Source: Natrinema gari JCM 14663 (lineage in GTDB: Archaea; Halobacteriota; Halobacteria; Halobacteriales; Natrialbaceae). From it: a DNA stretch of 64,000 bases. The position numbers and the translations under genes were made by a program. Below, piece after piece: positions 5,792 to 17,715 of this stretch. Where the stretch lies: assembly GCF_000337175.1 (NCBI RefSeq), contig NZ_AOIJ01000041.1:1-64000 (forward strand). Direction: 5' to 3'. Below the pieces are notes generated by a model, which had not been told where the DNA came from, did no database searches, and was given only the letters and a program-made list of their open reading frames with translations. Numbering within the stretch: the stretch's first letter is position 1; each line of letters begins with the position of its first letter.

Positions 5792-6730
5792 ATGGACCTC
5801 GAGACAGTCATGGAACGGGCAGGCCCCCGGGAGTTCGGGCCGGGGGACGACCTCCCGGAGAAGTATCGCAAAGCCGCGACTCGAATGATCCAATTTCACG
5901 CGAACAGCGAGGTCATGGGCGGGTACCTCGACAAGACGTTTACGCGAAAGGCACCCTCGCTCGATCGGAAACTGGCGAACACGGCGAAAGTACAGGACGA
6001 AATCGGCCACGCACAGCTGCTCTATCGCGCCGCCGAGACGCTAGGCGTGAAAACTCGAGCGGAGATGCTCGATGAGCTCGCGACCGGTGACGGGAAGTTC
6101 TTGAACTGCTTTCATTATCCCGTCGATTCGTGGTACGAAGCACCGATGATCGACTTCTTCGTCGACGGCGGTGCGATGCGTCGGCAGGCGACGCTGAAGT
6201 CGACCAGTTGGACGCCGTACGCACATGCGATGGATAAGGTCTGTTTCGAGGAGGGGTTCCACGTGAAACACGGCGAGTCAATCCTTCGGGAACTCATGAA
6301 CGGGTCCAAGGCGACTCAAGAGCGCATGCAGGAGACGTTCGACGTGTGGTGGCCGCGCATCCTCCAGTTCTTCGGTCCGACGAACGACGAGAGCGTCCAC
6401 GATGACTTCGCCCAGGCCGTCGGCCTCAAAACGGCGACGAACGACGAACTCCGGACATCGTTCCTCAATATGTATATCCCCAAGGCTGAAAAGTACGGGT
6501 TGGAGATCCCGGAGTATCCCCGTCTTTACGAGCGGGACGACGGAACGATGGCCGTTCGTGAGGACGACCTCGACTGGGAGGAGTTCTGGACCATCTCGAG
6601 GAACGAATACGAGGGCTCGAAAGAACAGATCGGCTCGCGTCGTCGCCGGCAGGACGCGGTCGAATGGGTACGCGAATCGCTTGAAACGTGGGAGTCCAGT
6701 GCCGGACCGACCCCACAGACGGCCGATTAG
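5792..6730 (+). CDS. paaA: 1,2-phenylacetyl-CoA epoxidase, catalytic subunit PaaA
   Basis: PaaA is the diiron oxygenase subunit that epoxidises the ring of phenylacetyl-CoA. The 312-residue length matches the bacterial enzyme (about 309). Di-iron ligand motifs are visible: Glu40 in HANSEVMGGYL, EIGH at residues 70-73, and a downstream EEGFHVKHGE motif. The protein is the first gene of a tightly packed operon with PaaB, PaaC and PaaD and has its own TATA-like box about 27 bases upstream. The reductase PaaE, which feeds electrons to the complex, is not in this window. The sequence is acidic throughout, as expected for a halophile cytoplasmic enzyme. Confidence 0.95.
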   Translation: MDLETVMERAGPREFGPGDDLPEKYRKAATRMIQFHANSEVMGGYLDKTFTRKAPSLDRKLANTAKVQDEIGHAQLLYRAAETLGVKTRAEMLDELATGDGKFLNCFHYPVDSWYEAPMIDFFVDGGAMRRQATLKSTSWTPYAHAMDKVCFEEGFHVKHGESILRELMNGSKATQERMQETFDVWWPRILQFFGPTNDESVHDDFAQAVGLKTATNDELRTSFLNMYIPKAEKYGLEIPEYPRLYERDDGTMAVREDDLDWEEFWTISRNEYEGSKEQIGSRRRRQDAVEWVRESLETWESSAGPTPQTAD

Positions 6731-6734
6731 ACCG

Positions 6735-7079
6735 ATGATTTGGGAAGTATTCAGACAGGAGGAGCCGGGTGACTCCCACGAGCACGTCGGCAACGTCCAC
6801 GCCCCGGATCGCGAAATGGCCACGCTGTTCGCCCGGATTCAACACGCCCGGCGAATGCAAACGAACTCCCTCTGGGTCACGCCGCGGGACGAGATCGGAG
6901 AGGTCACCGCCGAAGAAGCCGCATTCGGCGGTCGAACCGACAAGTCATACCGATGGGCGATGACGTACAACGACATCGACGCCTCGTTCGCCGAGGAAGT
7001 CGCTGACAGTGAGTCCAAACAACGCGAAGCGGCCCGCAAGCGCCGGGAGGCGCTCCGAGAGGAGGAGACCGACGCATGA
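6735..7079 (+). CDS. paaB: 1,2-phenylacetyl-CoA epoxidase, subunit PaaB
   Basis: This 114-residue subunit starts 4 bases after paaA stops (MIWEVFRQE). It has the conserved PaaB pattern of an N-terminal WEVF strand, a central HVGNVHAPDREMATLFARIQ helix, LWVTPRDEI, and a lysine/arginine-rich tail. PaaB bridges PaaAC dimers in the bacterial complex and has no catalytic residues. The length is slightly above the bacterial form (about 95) because of an acidic C-terminal extension. Its stop overlaps the paaC start, indicating translational coupling. Confidence 0.93.
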   Translation: MIWEVFRQEEPGDSHEHVGNVHAPDREMATLFARIQHARRMQTNSLWVTPRDEIGEVTAEEAAFGGRTDKSYRWAMTYNDIDASFAEEVADSESKQREAARKRREALREEETDA

Positions 7080-11695: not shown

Positions 11696-12131
11696 CTATA
11701 TCCACTCTTGAGGTCCTCTCAGCCCATGACTCCCGAATACACGAGCCACCCAGGAGATTAACTGTTTCCGTGGCGTGGTCCCCGTATTCTCGAGCTCCCA
11801 GCCGGCAGCACTGGCAGCGTCTGTGAGAGCGAAATACTCCCACTGCGTCCGAGGAAGGTACTCGGGACGGATCGGGAGCCTCGCTGACCAGAACGTGTCT
11901 CTCGGTCGTGAACCGGTTATGGAGGCGGGTGAAGTTCGGGGAAGTCGGCGCTACTCGGAAGGCCAGACGAACGAGATTCGTTGAACTGAAGGCGTGAGCA
12001 GCCCCGGACTCTGCCGCGGTCAGACCGACGTTCTGCGCCCATCGTCGTGCATCAACGACCACCGCCTGTGGCTCACGAGCCTGCTGAAGCGCCGCGAGCT
12101 CGAATGCGAGCGTCATGGATTCCCCGGTCAT
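11696..12131 (-). pseudogene. frameshifted haloarchaeal conserved protein (DUF7124-like)
   Basis: The frame starts well with MTGESMTLAFELAALQQ and AVVVDARRWAQNVGLTAAES, and continues to RLHNRFTTERHVLVSEAPDPSRV. The expected C-terminal block then resumes in another frame as EYLPRTQWEYFALTDAASAAGWELE and runs to a stop at 11696. The two halves together match the order of a small haloarchaeal family I remember as DUF7124; the name is from memory. One frameshift near 11860-11880 separates them, so the gene is probably dead, unless the shift is a sequencing error. Confidence 0.5.
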
Positions 12132-12485: not shown

Positions 12486-12728
12486 CTAGCGTTTGCCATC
12501 CACGACTGAAGTCGTGGGATTCCTCTCGTGGGAGTCGCAGTCGTTTCGAGCTTCCCCGAGAGCGGGATTCCCGTTTGATTCGGTCTCTGGTCCGCGAATC
12601 CGACTACGTGCTCGCTCATCCGTCTCACCGGCTGTCTGCCGGGTCACGAGCCCGACCAGATACGAGGCGTCTTCGGCGATGACCGCCGCCGTGGTGAGCT
12701 GAACACCGTTCTCATTTCCCGATCGCAC
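12486..12728 (-). mobile_element. remnant of an IS200/IS605-type (IS1341-like) element, OrfB C-terminal end
   Basis: The minus-strand frame contains PETESNGNPALGEARNDCDS followed by HERNPTTSVVDGKR, which resembles the C-terminal tail of haloarchaeal IS1341-type OrfB (TnpB-like) proteins. It is followed by the characteristic end hairpin at 12500-12517. The catalytic part of OrfB, the zinc ribbon and the other element end are absent, so only a right-end scar remains. Confidence 0.55.
12500..12517. repeat. IS200/IS605 end hairpin CCACGAC-TGAA-GTCGTGG
   Basis: Perfect 7-base arms around TGAA form the sub-terminal hairpin seen at the right end of haloarchaeal IS200/IS605 and IS1341 elements. The neighbouring OrfB tail supports the reading. 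Confidence 0.6.
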
Positions 12729-12851
12729 GACCGCTGGACCGTCGCGGACGATGCCCGCTGTCGCGTGGCTCGAGACGATCCGCGTCCGACCTCCCCTCCA
12801 AGAGAGCCATCGGAACGCATCGCCGACTCCTGCAGAGCCGGCGGTTCCGGA

Positions 12852-13418
12852 TCATCGTCGCTCACCGAGTACGAAGCGTTGTTCCATTGGGGGCTGGGAC
12901 CACTCTAGCGTCCCTGGGAACGGATTCTCGAGCGTGTCCCAATCGTCGTCCATCTCCGTCTCCGAGAGGAGGCAGTCGTCGAGCGAGGCGACGATGGCGG
13001 ACTCGTCCATCCCAGTGCCGATGAAGACGAGTTTCACTTCGCGGTCACCCCACTGCTCGTCCCAGTGGCGATCCGACCGCGAGTCACGGTAGGATTCCCG
13101 CTGGAACTCTGGAAGCGTGACCGCCCACCGACCGTTGACCTCGACGTGGGTCTGTGTCCCCGCCTGGCTTAGCTCGAGGGCGTAGCGTTCCCGGCCAGCG
13201 ACCCACAGGTACCCTTTCGCTCGGACGACAGGATCGGGGAACGAGCGGAGCCATTCGTGGAACCGCTCCGGATGGAACGGTCGGTGGCGCTCGTAGACGA
13301 ACGAATCAATACCGAACTCCTCCGGCGGGTGGAGGTGGTCATGCCTGTGGCCGTCCGGTTCCGTCTCGTCTTCGTCGTGCTCGTGATCCCGGAGTCGTGC
13401 CGTCATCGAGGCGGTCAC
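12852..13418 (-). CDS. CobW C-terminal domain only (truncated COG0523 metallochaperone)
   Basis: The 188-residue frame starts in the His/Asp-rich metal-binding linker (HEHDEDETEPDGHRHDHLHPP) of haloarchaeal CobW-type GTPases. It continues through the whole CobW_C domain: FGIDSFVYERHRPFHPERFHEWLR, VVRAKGYLWVAGRERYALELSQAG, GDREVKLVFIGTGMDESAIVASLDDCLL. The N-terminal GTPase half (about 200 residues with the Walker motifs and CxCC) is missing. Instead the 3' end of an ABC transporter operon lies 80 bases upstream. An AATATAAT box at 13446-13453 is at about the right distance for transcription from this ATG. It is either a truncated pseudogene or an orphan metal-binding domain that is still expressed. 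Confidence 0.75.
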   Translation of the reverse strand: MTASMTARLRDHEHDEDETEPDGHRHDHLHPPEEFGIDSFVYERHRPFHPERFHEWLRSFPDPVVRAKGYLWVAGRERYALELSQAGTQTHVEVNGRWAVTLPEFQRESYRDSRSDRHWDEQWGDREVKLVFIGTGMDESAIVASLDDCLLSETEMDDDWDTLENPFPGTLEWSQPPMEQRFVLGERR

Positions 13419-13445
13419 GACGGCGAGCCAGTAAAAGCCGACGCG

Positions 13446-13498: not shown

Positions 13499-14287
13499 TC
13501 AGTGACTGGTGTCGTCCGGACGCCCAAGTTCAGTCCTGATCCGCGCGACGTGGCCCACGAAGTCACGAGCGGTCCGTTCACGGGGGCGCGCTAAATCGAT
13601 CGAGAACGTCGACTGCACGGTTCCCGGGTCTGCATCCACGACAATCACGCGATCAGCGAGGGTCACCGCTTCGTCGATGTCGTGCGTGACGAACACGACG
13701 GTCTGTCCGGTCTGCGTCCAGATGTCGAGCAATTCGGCGTGAAGGCGATCCCGCGTCCGGGTGTCGACACTGCCGAACGGCTCGTCCATCAAGAGTATTT
13801 CAGGATCGACAGCGAGAGCGCGAGCGATCCCGACGCGTTGTTTCATGCCGCCGGACAGCGCCTTCGGGTACGCGTCCTCGAAACCCTCGAGCCCCACCAG
13901 GTCGATCAACTCCCGGACCCGTGCTTCGCAGTCGGGGCAGTCACACGCGGGCCGGTCGAGGCCGAACCGGATGTTCCCGCGGACGGTTCGCCAGGGGAAG
14001 AGTGCGTACTCCTGGAAGACCATCCCCCGGTCCAGCCCAGGACCGGTAACCGGATCTCCACCGACCAGTATCGACCCACCGTCCGGGTCATCGAGTCCGG
14101 CGATTGCCCGCAACAGCGTCGTCTTCCCACACCCGGACGGACCGACCACACAGCAGAACTCGCCTTCCGCAACCGAGAACGAGACGTCTGCGAGCGCTTG
14201 CACCGACTCGTAGGATCGGCTGACGTTCTGAATTGTGATCTTCTCACGTGAGTCGTGATCCGTCGACGAGCCCGAACTCAGCGCCAT
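13499..14287 (-). CDS. ABC transporter ATP-binding protein, taurine/nitrate/sulfonate type
   Basis: The 262-residue ATPase has Walker [18 protein letters not shown]-loop [10 protein letters not shown], signature [15 protein letters not shown], Walker [13 protein letters not shown] and the switch His in [11 protein letters not shown]. This is the SsuB/TauB/NrtD subfamily. It carries a short CPDCEAR insertion between Q-loop and signature, giving a CxCPxC-like cysteine cluster ([14 protein letters not shown]). It overlaps the permease gene by 10 bases and ends the three-gene operon. The imported solute is not evident. Confidence 0.9.
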
Positions 14288-15120
14288 GTGAGGATCCTCC
14301 GTTCGAGAAGTCGGAACCCGACGTCCATACAGAGGAACGCCAGACTGATCAGGACCATGTAGGCGACGCTGGTCGCCATCGCGAGGTTGTTCGAGGCGTT
14401 GATGATCTCGTAGCCGACGCCGGGCGCGCCGAACAGTTCGGCCCCGACGACGATCATCCAGCAGCGACCGATGCTCGTTCGGAACCCGGTCAATACCTGG
14501 GGTGCGGCGCTCGGGAGTGCGACGAGTTTTAGCATCGAGAGGTCACGCTCCACGCCGAGGGTCGACGCGGCATCGGTCAGCTCGCTCGAGACGCCTTCGA
14601 CGCCACCATACGCGCCGTAGAAGTTGATCCAGAACGCCCCGACGAAGACGATAAACGCCGCACCGGTGTGGTGAATGCCGAACCAGACGATCGCGAAGAC
14701 GACCCACGCCAGCGGCGGGATCGGCCGGAGCACCCGGACGAGTGGCCGTAACCAGTCGTCGAGCACACCGTGCCAGCCCATCGCTAATCCCAGACTGATC
14801 CCACAGCTCGCACCGAGGAGGAGGCCAGGGAGGTAGTGGAACAACGTCTGTGCGAGGTGTGCAAAGCCGGTCGGCAGGACTAGACTCGAGCCCAGGACGG
14901 GGACCACGATCGCAGTCGAGGTCGCGAACAGGTCGATAAACGCGCGTCCCGAATCGAGCGGGCCCGGCACTAGATATGACGGCTGGGTCGTCATCGCACC
15001 AACCCACCAAACGAGGAGAAACACGAGGAGACCGCCCAGACCGCGCAGATACCGCCGTCGGTCCCCCTCGAAGCTGCCGGCGACCACCGCGTTGGAACTG
15101 GTGTCGGTACGCGTACTCAT
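14278..15120 (-). CDS. ABC transporter permease, taurine/nitrate/sulfonate type
   Basis: The 280-residue membrane protein has about six predicted helices. The first is [14 protein letters not shown] and a later one is [19 protein letters not shown]. The EAA loop [39 protein letters not shown] that contacts the ATPase is conserved. This is the SsuC/TauC family. It overlaps the ATPase gene by 10 bases and the binding-protein gene by 4 bases, so the operon is translationally coupled. Confidence 0.9.
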
Positions 15121-16145
15121 TCCTGGATGGCGTCGTAGGGATCGAACGCGAACAGGTTCTCAGTCGCGACCGGTGCTTCGATGTTCCCGACGTTCGCGAC
15201 GAACTCGCCCATCGTCGCAGCTTGGTCGGTGATCGCGTGCGGGTCCGAGAGGAAATCCGACGCCTGTGAGTCCATGGCCGCCGTAGCGAGGTCTTCGCTC
15301 ACGCCGGAGCCGATCACCGACGCGGCGTGGGCGGCAGCGGCATCGGGGGCGTCTGCTGTGAACTCGGTCGCTGCGACGTGCTGTTCAACAAGCGATTGGG
15401 CGATGTCGGCGTCGTCGAGCACTTGCTGGTTCGCGAACAGCACCGTGACGGGGTGGTTCTCGAGGATGTTTCCGGACCAGGCGAGTTCGCCGAAGCCGTC
15501 ATCTTGGTCGATGATCGTCGCGAACGGCTCTTGGATGATCGTCGCGTCGATGTCGCCGGATTGAATCGTCTGGACCGCCTTCGCTGGCGGGACTTTCGAT
15601 TTGTTGATGACGGACGCCATCTCACCGGCGTCGAGATCCTCCTGGATCCAGTATCGGAGGACGACGTCGGGGACGCTTCCGTCCGGTGGGGCACCGAACC
15701 GTACCTTGCGACCCTGCTCCTGCTCGAAACGCTCGAACATAGCTGTGCCGTCCTGTTCGTTGCGCTCGACGAGTTCGGTTGTCCCCATGATCTTGAAGCC
15801 GTTTCTCGAGTTTGCCGCGAGGATACCGGCGTCGGTGCCTTTGTCGGCGAGAACCATCGCAGGAGTAATCCCGAAGAGCGCAACGTCGACATCCCCGCTG
15901 GCAAATGCCTTGACGACGCTGGGGCCAGAGCTGAACCGCTCGATTGTGACAGCCGCTGGGACATCCTCGTAGTAGCCCTCTTGTTCCATCACGTAGTGTT
16001 GCATGTTCGGATAAATCGGGACGTACGCGATCGTGACGGAATCGAGTGACTCCCCTCCTCGACCGAGACAGCCAGCGATTCCCGCCGCAGCAATAGTGGT
16101 TGCGCCTGCCTTCCGAAGCAGCCTTCGGCGCGAGATGTGGACCAT
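15117..16145 (-). CDS. ABC transporter substrate-binding lipoprotein, SsuA/TauA/NMT1-like
   Basis: The 342-residue protein begins with a twin-arginine lipoprotein signal: SRRRLLRKAG, a hydrophobic stretch, and lipobox IAGC with Cys26. The mature part has the SsuA/THI5-like fold order: TIAYVPIYPNMQHYVMEQEGYYED, the helix-forming GPSVVKAFASGDVDVALFGITPAM, FGAPPDGSVPDVVLRYW and IIQEPFATI. It would be anchored outside the membrane and deliver an organic anion or similar solute. A TATA-like AATATTATT on the minus strand near 16172-16180 lies about 27 bases upstream, making it the first gene of the operon. A broken nikR gene and a truncated cobW flank the operon, but a nickel or cobalt substrate is only a guess. 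Confidence 0.88.
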   Translation of the reverse strand: MVHISRRRLLRKAGATTIAAAGIAGCLGRGGESLDSVTIAYVPIYPNMQHYVMEQEGYYEDVPAAVTIERFSSGPSVVKAFASGDVDVALFGITPAMVLADKGTDAGILAANSRNGFKIMGTTELVERNEQDGTAMFERFEQEQGRKVRFGAPPDGSVPDVVLRYWIQEDLDAGEMASVINKSKVPPAKAVQTIQSGDIDATIIQEPFATIIDQDDGFGELAWSGNILENHPVTVLFANQQVLDDADIAQSLVEQHVAATEFTADAPDAAAAHAASVIGSGVSEDLATAAMDSQASDFLSDPHAITDQAATMGEFVANVGNIEAPVATENLFAFDPYDAIQE

Positions 16146-16277
16146 CGGTGTTGATAACTGTAGGTCTAGTCCTAATAATATCTGTGGTTTGTTCGGAGAG
16201 AGTTAACATTCAAAGGGGCCTGAGAGGGTGGATGTTGCTAGAGTTGGTGTGAGTACAGCGAGAAGGGGAAACCAGGA

Positions 16278-16699
16278 TCAATCCATGTCGGCAAGCGAGC
16301 CAAAGTCGTCCATCGACAGCACAGCGTAGTCGATCGTGAGCGTGTCTTTCGTCGCTCGGCTCTTCCCGACGAACGTCGAACTCTCTTCGAGTGATCCCGT
16401 CAGCACGAACAGTTCCATGCAGTGATAGCCGTCGACGTGACTATGACAACTCGAAGCGACGATGTCCTCGTGTTCGTGGCGGAGGTGCATCGTTGCCTCC
16501 TCGACGCTCGTTGGTTCATAATCGAAAACCACAGTGACGACGCCCATCACGTCTCTATTCGCGAGTGTCTTATCCTCGAGTTCACCGAGCCGGTTCCGGC
16601 TCGCTTCACGGAGTCCCTCACTGCGACCGGTATAGCCGTGATCGTCCGCGAACTGGTGGTTCGATCACACAACTCCTCGGTGTCGAGACACTGAGCTGG
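16278..16699 (-). pseudogene. nikR: nikR nickel-responsive regulator with a frameshifted N-terminus
   Basis: The C-terminal 89 residues (16278-16547) are an intact NikR nickel-binding domain. His25, His36, His38 and Cys44 of the 90-codon frame match the spacing of E. coli NikR His76, His87, His89 and Cys95 with one constant offset. Upstream the DNA-binding half is recognisable but broken into three frames. SVSTP lies near 16690, EELCDRTT comes next, then [35 protein letters not shown] runs straight into the intact domain. A TGA closes that last frame just before FADD. The ribbon-helix-helix strand that reads DNA is therefore lost or out of frame. Translation from 16547 would give a nickel-binding domain without a DNA-binding domain. 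Confidence 0.75.
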
Positions 16700-16952
16700 T
16701 TCGCAGTTGTGGATTTTTGCTAAAACGAATGCCAGGGTTAGTTGGGAGATTGTAGCGAATTTTGTTGGAGCAACGAGAACAGAAGAGACGCATCAATTCC
16801 ATACTCCGCGGTTGTGGGGAGGTCGGACTTTCGCAGGATGGACGAAAACAGGGCCAAACCCTGGAACGGCATGCACGTCACAGCCAGGGCGTGACTGAGA
16901 AAGCATTCTTTTGGAGTGAATCGAGAGGAGATCACACGTACTACCTAACTGA

Positions 16953-16968
16953 TACAAGTGTGGTTGTA
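16953..16968. promoter_or_regulatory. 16-bp dyad TACAAGTGTGGTTGTA, copy 1
   Basis: TACAA/TTGTA arms flank a 6-base core, 48 bases before the thioesterase ATG and just ahead of an AT-rich TATA-like ATAATATC. The surrounding 30 bases (ct-atacaagtg---ttgta-ta-atcaag) recur at 17580-17610. The 250 bases before this site (16700-16952) hold no recognisable gene. Confidence 0.45.
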
Positions 16969-17015
16969 TAATATCAAGTCAAATGGTTTTTGTAGCGCTT
17001 TCCCCGAGATAAGAT

Positions 17016-17501: not shown

Positions 17502-17584
17502 ATGTCTAATACGTAATTGTTGTTGAGGCTGGTGTCGCTGTGCTTCCATGTCACAGAACTAGTCGATTGCCTCTCTCCGACTAA

Positions 17585-17600
17585 TACAAGTGAATTTGTA
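17585..17600. promoter_or_regulatory. 16-bp dyad TACAAGTGAATTTGTA, copy 2
   Basis: Same arms and outer flanks as the site at 16953. A TATA-like ACTTTATATGG follows at about 17621-17631, some 85 bases before the nrdR remnant. It could be the operator for the nrd operon, or one of two direct repeats left around the thioesterase gene. Confidence 0.45.
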
Positions 17601-17715
17601 CTACATCAAGCTAGTTGGGAAACTTTATATGGATTCCCCTGACACCAGCTATTGCGGCTGCAAACGAGAGGCCCCCACCTGGGGATCGGAGTGAGAGGGA
17701 CGACCAGTGATAACT

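Follow-up and report, generated by a model that had tools for sequence, protein, structure and literature searches.

Our analyses point, with a probability that we put at roughly 90%, to the nikR-like gene of Natrinema gari JCM 14663 being a pseudogene and not a new sensor, and to its having once encoded the NikR repressor that served locally in a haloarchaeal metal-uptake island spread by horizontal transfer. The gene, hereafter nikR1, lies in the window that we analysed, which is the stretch formed by the first 64,000 nucleotides of contig NZ_AOIJ01000041.1 (C41) in a genome of 4.02 Mb and 88 contigs. The sequence shows that a deletion removed the promoter, the start codon and the first codons of nikR1, that two frame changes arose in its DNA-binding half and that, under relaxed constraint, amino-acid changes have since gathered in the nickel-binding half. 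Another deletion took nearly all of nikR2 together with the GTPase half of a cobW gene; the three ABC transporter genes in between are intact and constrained. The corresponding features are listed in Table 1.

Table 1. Features of the window around the nikR1 remnant
Feature	Position	Strand	Evidence
nikR-like gene remnant (nikR1)	16278-16699	(-)	Three-frame translation
nikR1 remnant, frame of 128 aa open after TGA, covering the RHH domain from its second half and the NikR_C domain	16278..16664	(-)	PF08753 E 1.1e-17; 82% identity/125 aa to L067 nikR1
90-aa GTG/ATG ORF (GTG 16550, ATG 16547); its Met is the ancestral internal Met	16278..16550	(-)	
Beta-strand and first helix of the RHH domain, spread over three frames, with two frame changes	16655..16695	(-)	
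Junction of the ~125-bp deletion (nikR1 promoter, ATG and first codons gone)	16696..16700	(-)	Alignment with L064
Ancestral sequence upstream of the nikR1 promoter	16700..16829	(-)	blastn to L064, L066, L067, L068, L077
Promoter/operator-like block of the ABC operon	16146..16210	(-)	Alignment of 25 loci and the window
ABC substrate-binding protein (SBP), NMT1_2 (NitT/TauT type), 342 aa, intact	15117..16145	(-)	PF13379 E 2e-45
ABC permease, intact	14278..15120	(-)	PF00528
ABC ATPase, intact	13499..14287	(-)	PF00005
Scar of a deletion, joining the initial ~14 codons of nikR2 (ATG changed) in frame to the His-rich linker and CobW_C half of a COG0523 GTPase	12852..13427	(-)	Local alignments to L077/L067 nikR2 and L077 cobW2; PF07683
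Remnant (C-terminal part) of the island gene that comes next, for a protein with a molybdenum cofactor synthesis domain	12636..12830	(-)	tblastn, 52% to residues 123-187 of 190 of the L093 protein
Sequence split over two frames, related to a hypothetical protein from the island of Haloferax gibbonsii (L094)	11744..12131	(-)	

Three-frame translation revealed that the NikR_C frame ran through the whole C-terminal domain to a stop at 16280, while SVSTP and EELCDRTT were found in the other two frames, one in each, and a TGA at 16667 interrupted the C-terminal frame. In profile searches, NikR_C (PF08753) was the sole domain matched by the remnant, with 64.4 bits against a cut-off of 22, while the intact nikR1 of locus L067 matched both RHH_1 and NikR_C. 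The 82% identity to the L067 gene over 125 residues places the resemblance beyond chance. The remnant also scored 47.7 bits with TIGR02793, whose curated cut-off of 175.45 does not separate it from intact haloarchaeal copies, as these reached just 70-72 bits. A HMMER alignment of L067 with E. coli NikR (1q5v), read together with the window sequence, revealed that the four nickel ligands H, H, H and C were kept at E. coli positions 76, 87, 89 and 95, the ligands of the E. coli protein being H76, H87, H89 and C95. Neither translation, ortholog alignment nor domain search found in the remnant a continuous frame with an N-terminal RHH domain and a start codon. The remnant thus has PF08753 and the four ligands in common with NikR, the nickel-responsive ribbon-helix-helix repressor (E. 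coli 1q5v, 2bj1), with which the intact L067 orthologue aligns over residues 3-121, but it differs from the E. coli protein in having no start, no promoter, an RHH half split over three frames and relaxed constraint.

The lesions were placed by comparison with 16 orthologous rows, among which L036 and L065 are the same sequence. Two one-base gaps in the RHH region were present in the window only. At the 5′ end, the window lacked about 125 bp that are present in Halonotius L064, whereas the sequences on either side of this segment matched; in L064 the segment contains the promoter and the ATG along with the first codons. The sequence at 16700-16829 showed 74-76% identity to longer matches located further upstream in the five loci named in Table 1. 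Intact nikR1 genes and the chromosomal nikR have a common promoter architecture, in which the pattern GATAATCCTTAATA...TTATTATATG, or a variant thereof, lies upstream, and this pattern was lost from the window nikR1. The Met codon at 16547 was found in 16 out of 16 ortholog rows, indicating that this ATG was inherited and is not a new start. Programmed frameshifting is moot because the start is missing and, likewise, a corrected sequence giving a single frame would not rescue the gene, since the start and the promoter would still be absent. Two claims of the sequence-only reading were borne out by these results, namely that nikR was broken in its DNA-binding half, in three frames with a TGA between, and that all four nickel ligands were kept at E. 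coli spacing.

We then compared the constraint on the nickel-binding half with that on the transporter genes. The window nikR1 had changed at 16 out of 88 residues that were invariant in 14 intact orthologues, several of these changes falling inside NikR_C, while each of the other nikR1 rows, tested in turn, had changed at 0-5 invariant residues (14 of the 16 intact nikR1 loci were used; L084 and the divergent L086 were left out). The window SBP presented only 2 changes at 184 invariant residues (13 orthologues; L063 was dropped due to its in-frame stop), the permease 2 at 199 (13 orthologues) and the ATPase 2 at 159 (12 orthologues), significantly fewer than nikR1 (Fisher p 4e-7, 2e-7 and 2e-6, respectively). 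In three codon triplets, nonsynonymous and synonymous codons stood at 8:7, 16:10 and 15:12 on the window lineage and at 0:9, 1:4 and 1:10 on the partner lineage. The synonymous changes that are still present show that the relaxation has acted over a limited time and not on a long-dead gene. The ligands of the NikR_C half thus survive, while the surrounding protein is no longer under constraint. This qualifies the earlier description of the nickel-binding half as intact, which is right as regards the open NikR_C frame and the ligands and wrong as regards the changed invariant residues. Altogether, the 5′ deletion, the two frame changes, the relaxed C-terminal constraint and the decay of neighbouring island genes support a decaying gene, the first of the two fates that had been suggested from the letters.

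The second fate was an altered sensor forming inactive heteromers. If the ATG at 16547 or the GTG at 16550 were used, the cell would make a NikR C-terminal domain unable to bind DNA, which could sequester nickel or form inactive heteromers with the chromosomal NikR. The frame is indeed open for 90 aa with the four ligands in place and an intact paralogue is available for mixing, but we consider this reading very improbable, because the promoter is deleted, the ATG is an internal Met codon inherited in all 16 ortholog rows, the 16 altered invariant residues include several within NikR_C and no comparable truncated form occurs among the 27 loci described below, where L070 holds a degraded piece only. 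The C-terminal ORF was also considered as a new gene and ruled out, its start being the inherited Met codon and its promoter being lost. Least probable of all is a sequencing or assembly error in a gene that is intact in the organism: two of the lesions are single-base gaps and the assembly is a draft of 88 contigs, but read errors would not be expected to produce the 125-bp loss of promoter and start, the changes at 16 invariant positions of a drifted C-terminal half and the decay of other island genes nearby, and we rejected this explanation.

A scan of genome contigs identified the same ABC binding protein at 27 loci of haloarchaea. In 16 of them nikR1 was located just upstream of the ABC operon, intact and open from its ATG; in one (L071) its start held unread bases, in another (L070, Haloarcula amylovorans) only a degraded piece was present, and 9 had no trace of nikR1 within 1.5 kb. 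Four named plasmid records carried nikR1 intact. The closer intact copies were 75-82% identical to the window remnant and, as exemplified by NZ_CP126162.1 P1L40_RS19060 (annotated nikR), occupied the corresponding place ahead of the same ABC operon, although the gene there is an intact one of 142 aa and the window copy a pseudogene. In the NikR tree, the window copy grouped with 11 nikR1 rows at a weak fork (89/71) and nikR1 did not form one clade, so that its assignment to nikR1 was mainly based on position and identity. Elsewhere in the genome, where the sequence-only reading had proposed a search for an intact nikR, such a copy was present: of two further NikR-like genes, that on contig C37 was a distant copy, while that on C86 was intact, chromosomal and 68% identical, with a close counterpart in most relatives. 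A NikR match was found in 59 out of 61 genomes searched, including this one. The C86 protein carried the strand VVSVSM, the same as that of intact NikR1, which we place as the DNA-reading strand from what we take to be the DNA-contact residues of E. coli NikR. As regards NikR2 (L067:8725-9153 and other nikR2 copies), SHNC...C replaced the HxH...C ligand pattern, with a Cys at the His89 position and the last Cys displaced onwards by one residue, a pattern suggestive of another metal or another geometry.

The complete island showed the order nikR1-ABC-nikR2-cbiMNQO-nikR-cobW and was often located on plasmids. In relatives it comprised nikR1, the SBP, permease and ATPase genes, nikR2, cbiM, a gene for a 107-aa protein in the cbiN position, cbiQ and cbiO. 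Downstream of cbiO, some relatives also carried a third and a fourth nikR, two COG0523 GTPases, a molybdenum-cofactor-type gene, an iron-sulphur scaffold gene, a cobalt-factor II methyltransferase and a metal ABC transporter. On the minus strand of the window, the order was nikR remnant, SBP, permease, ATPase and CobW_C fragment. The nikR2/cobW fusion was open from the GTG at 13418 for 188 aa, its cobW part corresponding to the second GTPase of the island, and had changed at 4 out of 82 residues invariant in four references; the fusion might still be used. Searches of the window genome found no CbiM, no urease gene and no further nikR2. Decay was also seen at other loci. A same-genus genome (L061, G005:C2) contained scattered remnants of nikR1, nikR2, the binding protein and the permease, and there the island looks fully decayed. 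Halovenus aranensis (L063) presented a binding-protein gene with an in-frame stop at codon 143 (6001-7026) and, between the ATPase and nikR2, an insertion (L063:8651-10461) that by eye we take to be TnpB/TnpA-like.

Domain searches showed that the operon, consisting of an NMT1_2 binding protein, a BPD_transp_1 permease and an ABC ATPase, has the architecture of a NitT/TauT-type ABC importer, and its scores with the NCBIfam named substrate families were all below their cut-offs. A promoter block (~TATTAAC...ATCACAG.TATTATTA...GTTAGYAACA..ATG) aligned without gaps and with equal spacing in 25 loci and the window, with or without nikR1; the alignment included all 9 loci without nikR1, and L085 was the most divergent. 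The transporter would still be expressed from its own retained promoter, and nickel control of the operon would now either be exerted in trans by the chromosomal NikR (C86), which is intact, or be lost. Conservation of the block whether or not nikR1 is present suggests a regulator acting in trans. The first candidate, on account of the VVSVSM strand that it shares with intact NikR1, is the chromosomal NikR. As the ABC block showed no visible sequence likeness to the nikR promoters, this step relies on the similarity of the proteins, and we regard control by the chromosomal NikR as about evenly poised. Another regulator, for example of the SirR type, could also act on the operon; SirR is predicted to regulate cbiN, cbiM and cbiQ in Halobacterium (review PMC3600143, in the portion considered here). 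Alternatively, the loss of both local NikRs would have made the transporter constitutive, a state selected because a cell without CbiM depends on this importer. The breakage of both nikR1 and nikR2 beside a constrained transporter, the absence of CbiM from the window genome and the 9 out of 27 loci without nikR1 are compatible with such a scenario, but we hold it unlikely, given that a block of fixed spacing kept in nikR1-less loci suggests that some regulator still reads it and that an intact NikR remains in the genome. The SBP tree was too poorly resolved to count the independent losses of nikR1. Apart from the operon, two similar ATACAAGTG..TTGTA boxes (16950-16985 and 17583-17610) were located upstream of a thioesterase-like gene (17016) and of an NrdR-like zinc-ribbon gene (17707), respectively; they are possibly a shared operator.

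The linkage of the operon to NikR and Cbi genes, together with co-occurrence, indicates that the transporter probably imports nickel or cobalt. Neither urease nor CbiM was found in the window genome, which makes a need for nickel there less evident. Across 125 family genomes, UreC (E <= 1e-13) was present in 13 out of 16 with the SBP clade (at least 53% identity) and in 36 out of 109 without it (Fisher p 5e-4), 11 genomes, among 60, with weak UreC matches only (E 1e-5 to 1e-3) being counted as without urease. Within the genus itself, the figures were 2 out of 4 and 8 out of 25 (p 0.59). Urease as the reason for the transporter is suggestive only, since genera are not independent. In two genomes (G008 and G099), the urease and SBP loci were located ~26-29 kb apart on one contig. 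According to the part considered here of PMC12029414, a paper on Haloarcula and Natrinema genomes, no more than two Natrinema species have CbiMNQO and a few have urease, a distribution that agrees with our genome searches; this part makes no mention of the ABC operon.

The nickel and cobalt transporter families given for archaea in the portion of PMC2667541 considered are Nik/CbiMNQO, NikABCDE and NiCoT, plus the predicted CbtX. NikABCDE, Nik/CbiMNQO and NiCoT are linked to nikR, as is the ABC operon described here, and CbiMNQO is found in the same island in relatives; in contrast to these families, the binding protein of the operon is of the NMT1_2 (NitT/TauT/SsuA) type. CbtJKL, the cobalt importer of Sinorhizobium, is likewise a canonical ABC importer for a metal of the nickel/cobalt type, but CbtJ is described as similar to BtuF in the part of PMC7689651 considered, and that description sets it apart from the NMT1_2 protein. 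In the literature on NikR and haloarchaea or Haloferax, and more widely, titles and abstract openings yielded no description of the operon, in a coverage that excluded most subscription journals. We tentatively propose that the NMT1_2-type ABC operon could encode a haloarchaeal importer of nickel/cobalt (or of a metal chelate) that is controlled by NikR and has so far not been described. The operon would move on plasmid-borne islands together with CbiMNQO, COG0523 GTPases, a metal ABC transporter and as many as four NikR paralogues, and would repeatedly shed its local NikR and keep a fixed promoter block that is taken over by the chromosomal NikR.

Taken by itself, the broken nikR is a case of ordinary gene decay whose history is well resolved. 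Of wider interest are the island and its transporter, which may be previously undescribed. Across haloarchaea, the same transporter promoter occurs with an intact, a decayed or an absent local repressor, a natural experiment in which one can test whether an incoming operon is adopted by a regulator already resident on the chromosome. The transporter itself is a candidate nickel/cobalt importer type outside the three families that PMC2667541, in the portion considered, gives for archaea.
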